Shown: piece after piece, positions 4,090 to 53,796 of the stretch | Numbering within the stretch: position 1 is the first letter of the stretch | Layout: each line of letters begins with the position of its first letter | Assembly: GCF_028617075.1 (NCBI RefSeq) | Contig: NZ_JAQKGV010000004.1 | Span: 62,001 to 126,000, forward strand | DNA: 64,000 nt | From: Rubrobacter calidifluminis | GTDB taxonomy: Bacteria > Actinomycetota > Rubrobacteria > Rubrobacterales > Rubrobacteraceae | Direction: 5' to 3' | The notes under the pieces: model-generated | Told to the model about the DNA's origin: nothing | Seen by the model: only the letters and a program-made list of their open reading frames with translations | Database searches by the model: none | Program-made: the position numbers and the translations under genes

Positions 4090-5328
4090 TCAGCCGCCCC
4101 TGCACGCGGCTCCAAAGGAGACGCGTGCGCTGGGGAGTGATGTGGCGTGGTAGATCGAGCCGTCGGCGCGGATCAGATCCCCGGGGGAGAAGGCGTAGCG
4201 CACGGCGTACTCGCCGGAGACGATTCTTTTGCCCTGCGTTCCGTCCACCTCGACCTTCGTGACCCTGCCGGAGGGGGAGCGGCCGAGTACCCGCACGCCG
4301 GTTATGGCGCCGATGCCGAGGCCTGGGGAGCTCCACGGCGAGATCGTGCCGCTCCAGCGCATCCAGGGCGAGCCGCCGATCGCGTCGTACGGCTGCCCGG
4401 CGGAGGTCGTGTCCTTCATCGCCTTCAGGTAGGGTTCCGGCCCGAAGACGTAGGAGGAAGCCTCGGTGTAGCCACCGTCGGAGGAGTAGTAGAAGGCCTT
4501 TATGGGGTTGCCGGCGTACGTCGCCACGACCCCGCGCGTCCTGGATACCGCGTAGTTCGTCGAGGGAGTTTCGGAGGAGGCTCCGAGGTACCTCTCGTCG
4601 CTCCCGGTGAGGTCGAAGACCCTCGCGTGGGCCTCCAGCGCCGAACGGGCGTAGGAGCGGCTCGCGACCGCCTGGGCCTCGAGCGCGGCCCGGGGCCAGG
4701 AGGGAGGCATCTCGTTCGGGACGACCCCCCTCACGTACCCCTCCAGTCCGAGCCGGTTCACCAGGTAGAAGCTCCCGCCGGAGACTCTGACTACGAAAGA
4801 GCCCCGGTAACTACTGCCAGCGTAGCGCAGGAACCCTCCCGAGGCTCGCCGGAAGACGATCGGACCCCGGTAATCGCCGAGCGTCCTGCCGGAGGAGAAG
4901 TTCGTGACCCGATAGAGCCCTTTGCTCGTCAGGTACCCGACCCGGTAGTCGCCGGGACCGAGCGTGAGGGAGACGCCGGTCCCGGACGGGGCGAGCCTCG
5001 CCGTGCTACCCGGGGTGACCTGGATGGTGTAGGTTTGCCCGATGGATCTCTTCGCCAGCAGCACCCGCACCAGCGGGTCGTTCCCGTATCCTGTGAGGCG
5101 GACGCCGTGGTAGTAGGCTTTTACGATCCGCGCATAGCCCTGGCCTGAGACGGCCCGCCCGTAGGCGCCGTACTGGGAGAGGCCGACCCCGTGTCCGTAG
5201 CCCGACCCGCAGACCGGGATGCCGGTCGTAGCCCGTACAGGGACTGAGACCTGGAGGGTGAACAGGGCCGAAGCGAGCAGGGTGATCGCCGTCAGGGCCG
5301 CGGCTCCCGGGCGGGGGATGGGTTTCAT
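4090..5328 (-). CDS. SpoIID/LytB-domain secreted protein
   Basis: A 412-residue protein with a signal peptide (short basic start, then AAALTAITLLASALFTLQV). It has the SpoIID/LytB hallmark LEGYVRGVVPNEMPPSWP followed by AALEAQAVASRSYA; in SpoIID the glutamate of the NEMP motif is catalytic for cleaving peptidoglycan glycan strands. The glycine-rich GYGHGVGLSQYGAYG motif lies near the N-terminus, about residue 43 of the mature-side region. A role in cell-wall remodelling outside the membrane is likely. I chose the ATG at 5328 rather than 5343 because AGAGGA sits 6 bases before it and it begins a cleaner signal peptide. It is a single-gene transcript with its own terminator. Confidence 0.88.
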   Translation of the reverse strand: MKPIPRPGAAALTAITLLASALFTLQVSVPVRATTGIPVCGSGYGHGVGLSQYGAYGRAVSGQGYARIVKAYYHGVRLTGYGNDPLVRVLLAKRSIGQTYTIQVTPGSTARLAPSGTGVSLTLGPGDYRVGYLTSKGLYRVTNFSSGRTLGDYRGPIVFRRASGGFLRYAGSSYRGSFVVRVSGGSFYLVNRLGLEGYVRGVVPNEMPPSWPRAALEAQAVASRSYARSALEAHARVFDLTGSDERYLGASSETPSTNYAVSRTRGVVATYAGNPIKAFYYSSDGGYTEASSYVFGPEPYLKAMKDTTSAGQPYDAIGGSPWMRWSGTISPWSSPGLGIGAITGVRVLGRSPSGRVTKVEVDGTQGKRIVSGEYAVRYAFSPGDLIRADGSIYHATSLPSARVSFGAACRGG

Positions 5329-5487
5329 GCAGGGTCCTCTCATATGCTCGTCTCTGGTCTCTCACTGAGCTTTTCGGTTGCGCAGGAAGATTGCTTTAGC
5401 TTTCGGCCATGGATAATTCGTGTTCCGGCGTGCTAAGATGCCCGGGTTTTACGGGGTTTCGTCCGGAGGCGGGAGGTTTCGGGTCGT

Positions 5488-49011: not shown

Positions 49012-49039
49012 TAAAGGACGGCCGACTCCCGGCCGATAA
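49012..49039 (+). promoter_or_regulatory. sigma-28 (FliA/WhiG-type) promoter before the first pilin gene
   Basis: TAAAG (49012-49016), exactly 15 bases, then GCCGATAA (49032-49039): this is the sigma-28 consensus (TAAA-N15-GCCGATAA) without mismatch. The expected transcription start is about 49046, a few bases before the start codon region. A second equally good copy is at 50516. Confidence 0.85.
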
Positions 49040-49049
49040 ATCACGCGTG

Positions 49050-49664
49050 ATGTCAGGAGAGCGGGGCAGGGCAGGTGTGGGCGTGGAAGAGGACGGCTTC
49101 ACGCTACCCGAGTTGCTCACGGTTTTGGCGATAATGGGCGTACTGATCGCCATCGCGATCATGGTCTTGCTCGCCCTGCTCGAGCGCTGGCGGGTGGACG
49201 CTGCGGCTCATCAGCTCGCCGCTGACCTCCGGCTTGCACACGCCCGTTCGGTCAACCAGCTCACCGACTGGCGGGTTGTGCTGGTGCCGGGGATGAGAGG
49301 GGAGGAAGAAGGGCCGGACTACTACCTGGTGAGGCTCAAAACTCCCTACGACGACGGCGGTCCCGTGCCGGTTCTGGATGGGGAGAGCGTACTCCGGCGC
49401 ACGTTTCCGGCCGACGTGATGGTCATGGACCAGCAGAGTCCCTCTGGGCGGGCGATACGCGACGACGCAGCGATGTCCTGGTGCGCGACGATGCCCGGCA
49501 GACTCTGTTCCGGGGTGACCCGCACCCTGGAGTTCAATTCAGACGGGACGATGGTCGCGTTCGTGGGGCCCAGCGGGACGATCCGGGTTACGGTGGACGG
49601 AGACCCGCAGCGCAAACTGACCTTTCTCTCGGCGACCTCCAGGATAAAGCTCTGGCCGTGGTGA
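49050..49664 (+). CDS. GspH/FimT-type prepilin
   Basis: A 204-residue prepilin. The polar leader ends ...EEDG, followed by FTLPELLTVLAIMGVLIAIA, the class III signal cleaved after Gly by prepilin peptidase, with Glu5 present. The next segment (WRVDAAAHQLAADLRLAHARS) and the C-terminal beta domain fit the GspH/FimT minor pseudopilin group. It is transcribed alone from a sigma-28-type promoter and abuts the convergent channel gene. The leader start is unsure: ATG 49050, or GTG at 49077 or 49083, which give shorter leaders like that of the second pilin. Confidence 0.85.
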   Translation: MSGERGRAGVGVEEDGFTLPELLTVLAIMGVLIAIAIMVLLALLERWRVDAAAHQLAADLRLAHARSVNQLTDWRVVLVPGMRGEEEGPDYYLVRLKTPYDDGGPVPVLDGESVLRRTFPADVMVMDQQSPSGRAIRDDAAMSWCATMPGRLCSGVTRTLEFNSDGTMVAFVGPSGTIRVTVDGDPQRKLTFLSATSRIKLWPW

Positions 49665-49665
49665 G

Positions 49666-50460
49666 CTACCGCCCTCCCTCCTCCCGGCGGCGCAATTCCT
49701 CACGCAGTTCCGAGACCTCTCCCGAGACTTCCTCAAGCCTTTTCGAGACCTCTTCCAGCTTGTTCATCAGCCCGGTCTCAGGAGGGGCGTCTTCATCTTC
49801 TCCCTGCAGGAAGCGCTGGGCCATGGCGCCGGTCAGGAGCGCGACGAACCCGATCCCACTCGCCATCACCACGATACCGATCATGCGTCCAGCCGTCGTC
49901 TTGGGGTAGATATCTCCGTAGCCCACGGTCGTGACCGTCTCTACCGCCCACCAGACCCCGTCCCAGGCGCTGATGTGTTGTCGCGGCTCTACGGCGGCGA
50001 ACGCCGTGCCGCCTCCCACGACGACGACGAAGAGAATCAGCGCGGCGTAGCGCAGTCCCTCGGTCGAGAAGACGTGTCGTGCCCGCTTGATGATCAGCAG
50101 GAGCCTCAGCACCCTCAGGAGCCTGAGCAGCCGCGCCGCCTGTAGCGTGGTTGGCAGAAACGGTGGGGTCAGCACCACGACCATGACCTCCAGCGGGTTC
50201 TCTCGCAGCCACCGCAGCCTGTCAGGCACCACCAAGAGCATCACGAGCAGTTCGGTGGCGAACGCACCCCAGATCAGCCAGTCGAGCACCTGCGCCAGGA
50301 GCTGCCACGTCCTACCCAGCTCCGACTCCTGGATCACGAGCGTCGGGATGACGAGCAGCGCGGCGACCAGCATCGGCACCTCGAAACGCCGGGCCGTCCG
50401 CCCTGCGCGTGTGCCGGAAGACTTCGCTCGTTGAACTTGCGGTCTTCTCTGCCCGTTCAC
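49666..50460 (-). CDS. voltage-gated-type potassium channel subunit
   Basis: A 264-residue Kv-like channel. Helices S1-S3 are followed by an S4-like segment with regular positive charges (RLLRLLRVLRLLLIIKRAR), then S5, the pore with selectivity filter TTVGYGDIYP (about residue 177-186), S6, and a C-terminal coiled coil (LEEVSKRLEEVSGEVSELRE) likely to assemble the tetramer. It is the only minus-strand gene inside the pilin region and starts (GTG) close to the second sigma-28 promoter, facing away from it. Confidence 0.92.
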   Translation of the reverse strand: MNGQRRPQVQRAKSSGTRAGRTARRFEVPMLVAALLVIPTLVIQESELGRTWQLLAQVLDWLIWGAFATELLVMLLVVPDRLRWLRENPLEVMVVVLTPPFLPTTLQAARLLRLLRVLRLLLIIKRARHVFSTEGLRYAALILFVVVVGGGTAFAAVEPRQHISAWDGVWWAVETVTTVGYGDIYPKTTAGRMIGIVVMASGIGFVALLTGAMAQRFLQGEDEDAPPETGLMNKLEEVSKRLEEVSGEVSELREELRRREEGGR

Positions 50461-50515
50461 CCTGATCGCGGGTTACTTTACCTCAAAGCCCGTCCGGAGA
50501 GGGTCTCGTCAGGGT

Positions 50516-50543
50516 TAAAGCCGACAGCTCCGACGGCCGATAA
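50516..50543 (+). promoter_or_regulatory. sigma-28 (FliA/WhiG-type) promoter before the pilin operon
   Basis: TAAAG (50516-50520), 15 bases, then GCCGATAA (50536-50543), again matching the sigma-28 consensus fully. The two promoters also share CCGAC in the spacer. The GTG of the first pilin gene lies 28 bases after the -10 element. Confidence 0.87.
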
Positions 50544-50571
50544 GACCACCGTGAGAGAGGAGCTTGCCTAG

Positions 50572-51033
50572 GTGAGAGACGACAGGCGCGGCCAGGAGGG
50601 CTTCACCCTACCCGAACTCCTGGTCACCATCGTCATCATGGGGATACTTACCGCAATAGCTATCCCGACCTGGAACGGGATCATGCGCCAGCGCCAGGTG
50701 GACTCCGCGACCAGTCAGCTGGTTGGAGATCTGAGGCTCGCGAGCACGAGGGCCACCAACCAGCTCGTCGACTGGCGGGTAGAGCTTGTCTCGGGCAGCG
50801 GTAACTACCTGCTGCAGAGGTCGGCTACCAGCACGTCCGGGGATGGTGCCTGGCAGACCGTTCAGTCGGTCAGCCTTCCTGGTGGTGTGGTCTCCGGGAA
50901 TTCTGGGGATGTGATCTTCCATCCCGACGGATCTTCCGAGGGGCTCGCCGTGGTGACGCTCTCGCGGGGAGGTTCCAATATCAGCACGATCCACATCGAC
51001 GCCGCAACTTCCGAGGTCAGCGTTGGGGGATAG
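50572..51033 (+). CDS. GspH/FimT-type prepilin, second copy
   Basis: A 153-residue prepilin starting at GTG, with AGGAG 9 bases upstream. The leader MRDDRRGQEG is followed by FTLPELLVTIVIMGILTAIA, then STRATNQLVDWRVELV. It is clearly related to the gene at 49.05 kb (SVNQLTDWRVVLV there), so the two are duplicates. First gene of a four-gene operon whose members overlap. Probably a minor pilin that primes assembly. Confidence 0.87.
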   Translation: MRDDRRGQEGFTLPELLVTIVIMGILTAIAIPTWNGIMRQRQVDSATSQLVGDLRLASTRATNQLVDWRVELVSGSGNYLLQRSATSTSGDGAWQTVQSVSLPGGVVSGNSGDVIFHPDGSSEGLAVVTLSRGGSNISTIHIDAATSEVSVGG

Positions 51034-51523
51034 GTCTTTTTGGCGGGTAGAATCAGGTTACACGATCATCGAGGTGCTTGTCGCCATACTTCTCCTGAGT
51101 ATCGCGATAATCCCCATGGCCGGCATGTTCGACACGGGGCTGCGGGCCGCGAGCACGAGCGGAAACTACGACCAGGCCCGCCAGCTTGCGGCATCCCAGA
51201 TCGAACAGTTCAGAAGCCTTGATTATGCGTGTGCCAGAGACTATTTCCCCAACGATTGCGGTTCCACCAGGACCACGTATTCTTCTTCGGGTAGCTACAC
51301 GACCGCCCCGATGGCCGTGCCCGCCAGCGCCGGGCTGCCCCCCGGTTCCACTTACCAGATAACCAAGCAGTATCTCACGCTCGATTGGAACGCATTCGGT
51401 TCCAGCCCATCCCAGTCTTTCGCCGGGGTGGGTTCGGACAAGGGGATGCTGAAGGTCACGGTCACCGTGAACTGGGGCGGCGGTTCGTACACGGAGAGCG
51501 GGCTTGTCGGCGATGGTGAATGA
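51023..51523 (+). CDS. PilV/GspI-type minor prepilin
   Basis: A 166-residue prepilin-like protein. YTIIEVLVAILLLSIAIIPM is the class III signal and helix, with the cleavage glycine just before (ESG). The following AASTSGNYDQARQLAASQIEQ and a Ser/Thr-rich beta domain match PilV/GspI-type minor pilins. The TTG at 51023 overlaps the upstream gene by 11 bases. Two cysteines (CARDYFPNDCG) may form a disulfide outside the cell. Confidence 0.82.
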   Translation: MGDRSFWRVESGYTIIEVLVAILLLSIAIIPMAGMFDTGLRAASTSGNYDQARQLAASQIEQFRSLDYACARDYFPNDCGSTRTTYSSSGSYTTAPMAVPASAGLPPGSTYQITKQYLTLDWNAFGSSPSQSFAGVGSDKGMLKVTVTVNWGGGSYTESGLVGDGE

Positions 51524-52091
51524 TCCCGGGCGGCGCTTCTTCGAGGATGAGGAGGGATTCACCCTCACCGAGATGCTGGTCGCAATGACGATGATGATGA
51601 TCGTCACCTTTGCGCTCTATGGTCTCTTCGACATGAGCCTGAAGGTCTACAGTTTCGGCGGCGACAAGGTCGAGGCCGTGGAGAACGCCCGCGCGGCCAT
51701 GGAGAGAATGTCGCGCGAGATAAGGTCGGCGTATCCAAACGGCGGCATTCTGGTCGCCAGCCCCGCCTATCCGAGTTCCAGCCAGATCGGCTTCACGAAC
51801 GGACCCGGAGGCGAAAGCGTCGTCTACAGCCTGAGTGCCGGAAGTGCGGTTTCCGGCTGTTCCGGGTGCCGCACGCTCATGAGGAACGGCGATCCGGTGA
51901 CGGAGTACGTCGACGGTTCGAAGGGGCTTACGTTCACCTACCTGCAGAGCGTCGACCCCGAGGTGCCCTCGACGAACGGGACCGACGTCAGGGCGGTGAA
52001 GATCACGCTGAACGTGATCGTGCCCGGGGTGCAGGCCGGCAGGCAGTCTCTGACCACCTACGTGGACCTCAGAAATGCGTCGGATCAGTAA
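51513..52091 (+). CDS. PilW/GspJ-type minor prepilin
   Basis: A 192-residue prepilin. The leader MVNDPGRRFFEDEEG precedes FTLTEMLVAMTMMMIVTFAL; RAAMERMSREIRSAYPNGG is the usual post-helix segment of PilW/GspJ. A CSGC motif is present in the C-terminal domain. It overlaps both neighbours (11 and 17 bases), which shows tight coupling of the pilin operon. The TTG at 51504 is a possible earlier start. Confidence 0.83.
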   Translation: MVNDPGRRFFEDEEGFTLTEMLVAMTMMMIVTFALYGLFDMSLKVYSFGGDKVEAVENARAAMERMSREIRSAYPNGGILVASPAYPSSSQIGFTNGPGGESVVYSLSAGSAVSGCSGCRTLMRNGDPVTEYVDGSKGLTFTYLQSVDPEVPSTNGTDVRAVKITLNVIVPGVQAGRQSLTTYVDLRNASDQ

Positions 52092-53796
52092 GGCGAGGGA
52101 TGCCGTCGTGGTGGATGAGGCCGGCATAGCACTGCCGCTGGCCATAATCCTGATCGTGCTGATAAGCGTCATGGGTGCCGGACTTCTCGTGTTCGTCAAC
52201 ACCGACTTGACCGCCGTCGCCCAGGCCAACGAGGGGCAGAGGGCCTTCGACCTCGCAGATGCCGGGATTCAGGCGGCCAGAAAACAGCTGGCCTCTGATC
52301 CGAGACCCAGCGACTATGACGGGCTGGGTTCGGTCAGTACCGGAGGTGAGAGTCAGTGGTCCTGGCAGACGAATGGGGCGACAAACGGCGTGACCCTGAG
52401 CAACCTTTATACGGGGTCGGGAACCCCGATGAACTCTGTAAGCGTGACCATACAAAATGTCTCGAGCGATTCAGGGGCGTCCACCTTCAGGGTGATCTCC
52501 ACAGGCCAGTACGGGAACGCGAAGCGCAGGATAGAGGCGATCTTCCGGGCTTCCGGTATCACGAACGGGCTTGACATTCCGCAGATGGTCTACGTAGGAA
52601 AGGACACGTCCATGGACCGGTTAGCTCTGGAGGGGCTGCCCATGTACTCGAGCGGGACCATAGACATCACCCAACCGACGCTGATCCTGAAGAACGCCAG
52701 CATGTTCTCCGGTGGGGATATCAAGCTACCTACACCCAGCTCTGGACTCTCCGCTTCCGTATGCGCCTCCATCCTCGGTGTCAGGTTGCAGGTCCAGATA
52801 GGAGGTGGTCCCGGGGTGACCGTCTCCGGTACCGACCCTGCGGGCAACTGGCAGAACCAGTACAATGCGACCGCCCGCAAGGTCAACACTCCCGGCATGG
52901 GAGCGGTGGGCAGCATAGGCTATCGCGATAACATGTTATGCAAGCCGAGTGGTTGGAGATCGAGCTTTTTCGACAAGGACAGCGGCCCCAGTTTGCTGGA
53001 CAACCTGATCGACCCGCTTCTAAATCCGATACTCGGCGGCACCACCCTCAAAGCGAGATTCGTCGATACCCCGAGCACCAGCCCGCAGCCTTCGAAAGAA
53101 ATAACGTACCCTTTCAACAAGACACCAGATACGGCAGCACTCACAAGTGATCTGAAGGCTGTGGCGCAGGCGCAGGGCAAACAGTACACGGTTCCTGCCG
53201 GTGCCTCTACCTCTTCTATATCATCTGCCAGTAAAGGAAACTATATAGAGGTTTCGGGGGGTACGCACACGGTCACCTTCTGCGATGTTGCCGTTCCCTG
53301 TGGAACCAGTGATTTGACGCTCAACTGGCCTGCGGTCTCCGCGAACACCGATCCTTCCGAATGGCCCGTGATCTACGTCAGATTCGACAACCACAGCTCC
53401 AACAACGTCGTCAACTGGAACGTCCTTACCAACCCGCAGCCTGCTTTTTCTGGCAATGACCCCTCGGCACGCTGTCAGAGTGCTCGCCAGAATACTCCAG
53501 GCTCCATTCGTCGGGGGATCCTTGTGGTGGAGAACGGCGGGGTGAATTTCTCGAGCAGCGCTGCACCCCTGGATGGGGGCATCATAACAGTGAAGGATGA
53601 CTCCTCGACCAACGCCGACCTGAGCGGCTCGGCGGGTGATCTCTGTGTCAGGGGGCCGGTGATCGTCGCCGGCAGCATCAGCCGTCAGAACTACACGGAT
53701 TTCGGGGCCCTCGACCCCGTTGTCTTCAGCAATCTGGCGGGTTTCGGGGGTTCCGCGCGGATAACCCAGCAGAGTTGGAGGGAACTCTACAGGTAG
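52075..53796 (+). CDS. PilX-like N-terminus with large extracellular domain
   Basis: A 573-residue protein. The N-terminus DEAGIALPLAIILIVLISVMGAG resembles PilX/GspK prepilins, with helix continuing AFDLADAGIQAARKQL. The remaining 450 residues are Ser/Thr/Gly-rich beta structure with few cysteines (SVCASILG, DNMLCKPSG, VTFCDVAVPCG, GDLCVRG), much larger than a normal minor pilin. A tip adhesin or GspK-like cap of the pilus is likely. GC content falls somewhat in the middle. It is the last gene of the operon and overlaps the convergent DUF4870 gene by 10 bases. Confidence 0.75.
   Translation: MRRISKARDAVVVDEAGIALPLAIILIVLISVMGAGLLVFVNTDLTAVAQANEGQRAFDLADAGIQAARKQLASDPRPSDYDGLGSVSTGGESQWSWQTNGATNGVTLSNLYTGSGTPMNSVSVTIQNVSSDSGASTFRVISTGQYGNAKRRIEAIFRASGITNGLDIPQMVYVGKDTSMDRLALEGLPMYSSGTIDITQPTLILKNASMFSGGDIKLPTPSSGLSASVCASILGVRLQVQIGGGPGVTVSGTDPAGNWQNQYNATARKVNTPGMGAVGSIGYRDNMLCKPSGWRSSFFDKDSGPSLLDNLIDPLLNPILGGTTLKARFVDTPSTSPQPSKEITYPFNKTPDTAALTSDLKAVAQAQGKQYTVPAGASTSSISSASKGNYIEVSGGTHTVTFCDVAVPCGTSDLTLNWPAVSANTDPSEWPVIYVRFDNHSSNNVVNWNVLTNPQPAFSGNDPSARCQSARQNTPGSIRRGILVVENGGVNFSSSAAPLDGGIITVKDDSSTNADLSGSAGDLCVRGPVIVAGSISRQNYTDFGALDPVVFSNLAGFGGSARITQQSWRELYR

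Follow-up and report, generated by a model that had tools for sequence, protein, structure and literature searches.

The closest described system is that of Rubrobacter radiotolerans (PNAS 2021, PMC8325347). According to this paper, R. radiotolerans has 20 promoter matches, and Cappable-seq starts lie just below 12 of them. Three of these 12 mapped promoters are in the type IV pilus cluster and five precede DGC/PDE genes, and similar promoter matches are given for R. xylanophilus. In the model put forward there, RsiG holds WhiG with the help of c-di-GMP, and a drop in c-di-GMP frees WhiG for transcription of the pilus genes. The evidence published for Rubrobacter consists of structures, mapped start sites and matches to the promoter pattern; a Rubrobacter mutant in whiG or rsiG was not met in the literature searched. 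The pilus genes of Actinoplanes are likewise read by WhiG-like sigma factors, and the FliA-type sigma factors of Actinoplanes missouriensis are comparable in reading type IV pilus genes (PMC8325347), although they also read flagellar genes and RsiG is absent from A. missouriensis. In Streptomyces the orthologous WhiG has the same flagellar-type promoter specificity and is under RsiG/c-di-GMP control, but it controls sporulation, whereas the predicted targets here are pili and envelope genes, and its RsiG carries two motifs rather than the single motif found here. FliA of Bdellovibrio bacteriovorus is similarly broadened to surface proteins and uses the same promoter spacing (PMC3627812), although Bdellovibrio is a flagellated predator.

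The source organism resembles R. radiotolerans and R. xylanophilus in that it belongs to the same family, is non-sporulating, possesses WhiG and a single-motif RsiG, and has TAAA/GCCGATAA promoters before type IV pilus and GGDEF/EAL genes (PMC8325347). Since WhiG control of pilus genes was published in 2021 for Rubrobacter, the principle is already known and the locus described here is a further case. WhiG-type sites in the source genome also stand before pilT, a ComEA-like gene, genes for cell-wall hydrolases and exported proteins, and the leader with a c-di-GMP-I riboswitch. Competence, riboswitches and amidases are not mentioned in the main text of PMC8325347. The sites found in the window (the whole 64-kb stretch of DNA that was analysed) are:

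49012..49039, + strand: WhiG/sigma-28 promoter 1, TAAA-N16-GCCGATAA, by pattern match
50516..50543, + strand: WhiG/sigma-28 promoter 2, TAAA-N16-GCCGATAA, by pattern match
5371..5398, - strand: weaker WhiG-type site with 2 mismatches, before the gene of a SpoIID-domain exported protein (4090-5343, - strand), by pattern search and domain search

Promoters 1 and 2 lie at the coordinates and on the strand given in the preliminary description, and their 28-mers are TAAAGGACGGCCGACTCCCGGCCGATAA and TAAAGCCGACAGCTCCGACGGCCGATAA, respectively. In both, the -35 element TAAA and the -10 element GCCGATAA are exact. The spacer between them is 16 bp in both sites, within the 15-16 bp range of sigma-28/WhiG promoters. 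The E. coli FliA consensus is TAAAGTTT-N11-GCCGATAA. The description had all consensus positions and the spacing matched; this stands for the boxes, but the spacer, when counted from TAAA, is 1 bp longer than that of E. coli FliA. The N16 spacer is the norm in the family (116 of 149 exact Rubrobacteraceae sites), and the Bdellovibrio FliA logo, TTAAG-N16-CCGATA, has a spacing equal to that of the window sites (PMC3627812). The predicted transcript starts lie near 49046 for promoter 1 and near 50550 for promoter 2, some 6-7 nt downstream of the -10 box.

Each of the two sites precedes a minor prepilin gene. The genes are:

49047..49664, + strand: gene 1, FimT/GspH-like minor prepilin with GFTLPELL, by ORF and domain searches
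50572..51033, + strand: gene 2, FimT/GspH minor prepilin with N_methyl and GspH domains, first gene of an overlapping operon
51023..51523, + strand: PilV-like minor prepilin (TIGR02523, E 1e-9), operon of gene 2
51504..52091, + strand: minor prepilin with N-methyl motif, PilW/GspJ-like by position, operon of gene 2
52075..53796, + strand: large protein with an N-terminal hydrophobic helix, PilX-like by position only, last in the operon

The start codon of gene 1 may be GTG 49047 or ATG 49050, which would make the transcript near-leaderless; GTG 49077 or 49083 is also possible. The operon runs from 50572 to 53796 with four overlapping genes, and the first three encode a prepilin N-methyl motif; family searches gave no match for the 52075-53796 protein. 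Both promoter-proximal genes (49047-49664 and 50572-51033) encode the prepilin N-terminal methylation motif, so the earlier assignment of a FimT/GspH-type prepilin gene to each site is right as to prepilins. The Pfam GspH domain, however, is above cut-off in gene 2 only, and gene 1 shows the N-methyl motif and a weak TIGR01708 match. Between the two pilin promoters lies a potassium-channel-like gene (49666-50460, - strand) with a TVGYGD filter recognized by eye, whose 5' end is 55 nt from promoter 2.

The possibility that the two sites are functionless chance matches was judged practically negligible. The pattern TAAAG-N13..17-GCCGATAA occurs only twice in the 64 kb and never in 100 dinucleotide shuffles, so the claim that no other copy exists in the window holds for the exact pattern. 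The genome-wide motif search that had been proposed gives five exact sites, all before genes, with none expected from the backwards-read control pattern. With up to two mismatches the genome holds 42 sites, against 13 for the reversed pattern, and the latter count speaks for chance. Among Rubrobacteraceae genomes, exact sites (spacer 12-19 after TAAAG) number 149 versus 7 for the reversed pattern, none are expected by chance in the window, and the position is kept at orthologous pilin genes. The shuffles and the reversed-pattern controls led us to reject this alternative.

For conservation, we compared two genomes of the same genus (G001 and G002) and others of the same family, including G012, G004, G010, G003, G023 and G026. 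In the source genome, G001, G002 and G012, promoter 2 is exact and the GFTL codons follow it at 55 nt; G001 and G002 are identical here and count once. With one mismatch it lies 55-56 nt before these codons in G004 and G010. The site orthologous to promoter 1 is exact in G012 and has 1 mismatch in G001/G002. A one-mismatch site precedes pilA at 133 nt in G001; in the source genome the distance is 132 nt. The motif is thus conserved before orthologous pilin genes of relatives, other genera included. Many relatives have no good site upstream of their nearest pilin match, some of these matches being operon-internal; promoter placement therefore varies and conservation is partial, and we reject pilin orthologues as universal carriers of the motif.

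Alternatively, the conserved block could be part of the pilin leaders and act there as a structured RNA or riboswitch. Site 1 does contain an inverted repeat in its spacer, GGCCG-ACTCC-CGGCC, with loop bases that could pair with the ribosome-binding site, and a short GCCG/CGGC stem, seen by eye, is possible in both spacers. However, Rfam gave no match at either site, even at E 5, and folding is no better than that of shuffles (z 0.48 and 0.83). The spacers have diverged at the orthologous pilin genes while the boxes are kept (e.g. GTTTTTCACTTCACCT in G012), which is the pattern expected of promoters, and identical boxes with identical spacing also occur ahead of unrelated genes. A structured RNA at the pilin sites is highly improbable on these grounds and was rejected for lack of an Rfam match, a folding signal and spacer conservation.

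The promoters have a matching sigma factor. A profile search of the genome for a FliA/WhiG-type sigma, as had been suggested, finds one such gene at C23:26855 (TIGR02479, 225 bits against a cut-off of 189.6). It lies between dprA and rpsB, neighbors identified by eye, in the classical dprA-whiG-rpsB order, and the best PDB match of its product is WhiG in the structure of the RsiG-WhiG complex (7lq4_A). The closest named relative of this WhiG, at 90% identity, comes from a metagenome-assembled genome labelled Rubrobacteraceae. Eight further full-length proteins match the FliA/WhiG model with E < 1e-24, and another of the genome's sigma factors, or several jointly, could read the same promoters. 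We consider this very unlikely: they score 90-120 bits, below the cut-off that a single protein passes, and the specificity of the sigma-28 family for TAAA/GCCGATAA is well established. A degenerate motif pattern for RsiG hits 15 places in the genome, and only one of them translates to a plausible RsiG, a protein of 81 aa with a single exact E-X3-S-X2-R-X3-Q-X3-D motif, ERRISYRRRIIQGRID. Its best PDB matches are the RsiG chains of 7lq4, 7lq2 and 7lq3, with 7lq4_D first. A search of the whole genome found no FlhA, the core flagellar export protein. By this lack of a match the bacterium seems to be without flagella, and flagella were rejected as the true target of the sites.

We are highly confident that both sites are promoters read by WhiG RNA polymerase, driving the minor-pilin genes and probably gated by RsiG and c-di-GMP. 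WhiG-RNA polymerase would read one lone minor-pilin gene and the four-gene minor-pilin operon of a type IV pilus. At high c-di-GMP, an RsiG dimer with bound c-di-GMP would keep WhiG off RNA polymerase and the pilin genes would be off; when c-di-GMP falls, WhiG would be freed and the genes turned on. Orthology with R. radiotolerans leads us to infer that WhiG transcribes from these sites and that c-di-GMP controls this transcription, and it is probably the single-motif RsiG that gates WhiG activity. The preliminary description had proposed that a FliA/WhiG-type sigma controls pili in this organism. This is very likely right, because the genome has the sigma gene, relatives keep the motif ahead of orthologous pilin genes, and Cappable-seq starts are mapped in R. 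radiotolerans.

The same regulon would be shared with pilA, pilT, GGDEF/EAL enzymes, which could provide feedback, and cell-envelope or exported proteins. With up to one mismatch, 13 sites occur genome-wide, each ahead of a plausible start codon; membership of this set is defined by promoter match only. Both minor-pilin (fimT) genes of the window are members. Genes at other sites with up to one mismatch, in contigs of the source genome, are:

L013:10638 onward: pilA
L198: pilT, T2SSE domain
L201:3663-5597, - strand: GGDEF-EAL protein
L023:7496-9559, - strand: GGDEF-EAL protein
L200: PAS-histidine kinase-receiver protein
L022:7453-9074, - strand: lysozyme-like gene, then Amidase_2/Golvesin protein
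L024: beta-helix exported protein
L203:4029-4424 (G000:C14), - strand: ComEA-like helix-hairpin-helix protein, 11 nt below a one-mismatch site
L202: metallo-beta-lactamase-fold lipoprotein
L199: GH26-like exported protein
L204: protein without family match

The site of the ComEA-like gene suggests a common regulon for DNA uptake and the pilus. The promoters of both GGDEF-EAL genes (L201 and L023) are near-leaderless, leaving 4-8 nt between the -10 box and the start codon; for pilA this distance is 51 nt. WhiG-type sites are also followed repeatedly (L022, L208, L210 and L255) by exported proteins whose N-terminal part is lysozyme-like (MGYVN..WEMPP or similar) and whose other part is Amidase_2 or Golvesin_C; the two parts are separate genes in L022 and one fused gene in L208 and L210. 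In other genomes, the 59 first genes below sites include, by Pfam, T2SSE ATPases of the PilT/PilB type (7), GGDEF (6), EAL (5), Golvesin_C (4), NlpC/P60 (3), CAP (2) and N_methyl (2) proteins. The data suggest that the WhiG-type pilus regulon, published for two Rubrobacter species, spans genera of the family Rubrobacteraceae. Its predicted targets include pilA and pilT, cell-wall hydrolases, enzymes of c-di-GMP metabolism and a competence-like gene.

The GH26-like gene shows a further feature. A c-di-GMP-I-GGC aptamer (RF03167, 69.2 bits, L199:386-463) follows the -10 box of site C6:121348 at a distance of about 10 nt. The loci with such an arrangement, in Rubrobacteraceae and in other families of Actinomycetota, are:

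L199:349-463 (G000:C6:121348-121462): promoter and c-di-GMP-I riboswitch in the leader of the GH26-like gene
L256, L259, L275, L283, L293, L296, L301, L306, L308, L311, L318: promoter-riboswitch loci
L328-L335, L337, L340, L343, L351, L352: further promoter-riboswitch loci

A strict aptamer pattern occurs at 36 places in 19 of 40 Rubrobacteraceae genomes. Within 80 bp upstream, a sigma-28-type promoter is present at 15 of 29 distinct aptamers with up to one mismatch and at 17 of 29 with up to two, and the -10 box mostly ends 16-25 nt before GGCAAAC. In other families of Actinomycetota, such a promoter accompanies 8 of 30 aptamers (up to one mismatch) or 17 of 30 (up to two). For random windows drawn from these loci, the corresponding rates are 0.1-0.4% (up to one mismatch) and 0.8-1.0% (up to two). 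Because the sequences are related by descent, the effective number of aptamers is smaller than these counts, with several genera and families contributing. Upon rechecking, 15 of 16 loci pass the Rfam threshold for a c-di-GMP-I family; L311 is absent there though it has the strict core.

Actinomycetota probably often place c-di-GMP-I riboswitches right behind sigma-28/WhiG promoters, so that one messenger could act twice on one transcript. RsiG and WhiG would set initiation in those genomes that have RsiG, and the aptamer would act in the leader; the combined logic may be reinforcing or pulse-like. If confirmed, this would be a clear case of a single second messenger working at two successive steps on one message, and it is testable in culturable Rubrobacter. 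The tandem may be new: the literature searched, which left most subscription journals outside, held no description of it, and the nearest case is Bdellovibrio, in which a c-di-GMP riboswitch RNA is expressed in the same phase (PMC3627812). This RNA (merRNA) has no FliA promoter in Table 2 of that report and no conserved downstream gene. In the GH26-like gene leader (L199), a hairpin covering the Shine-Dalgarno sequence is possible, CCUCCUCU with AGAGGAGG, and the overall fold is no better than that of shuffles. Another structured RNA, a glmS ribozyme (RF00234, 108 bits, L262:2778-2950, - strand), lies just below an exact sigma-28-type site in genome G023, so that this site may drive glmS.
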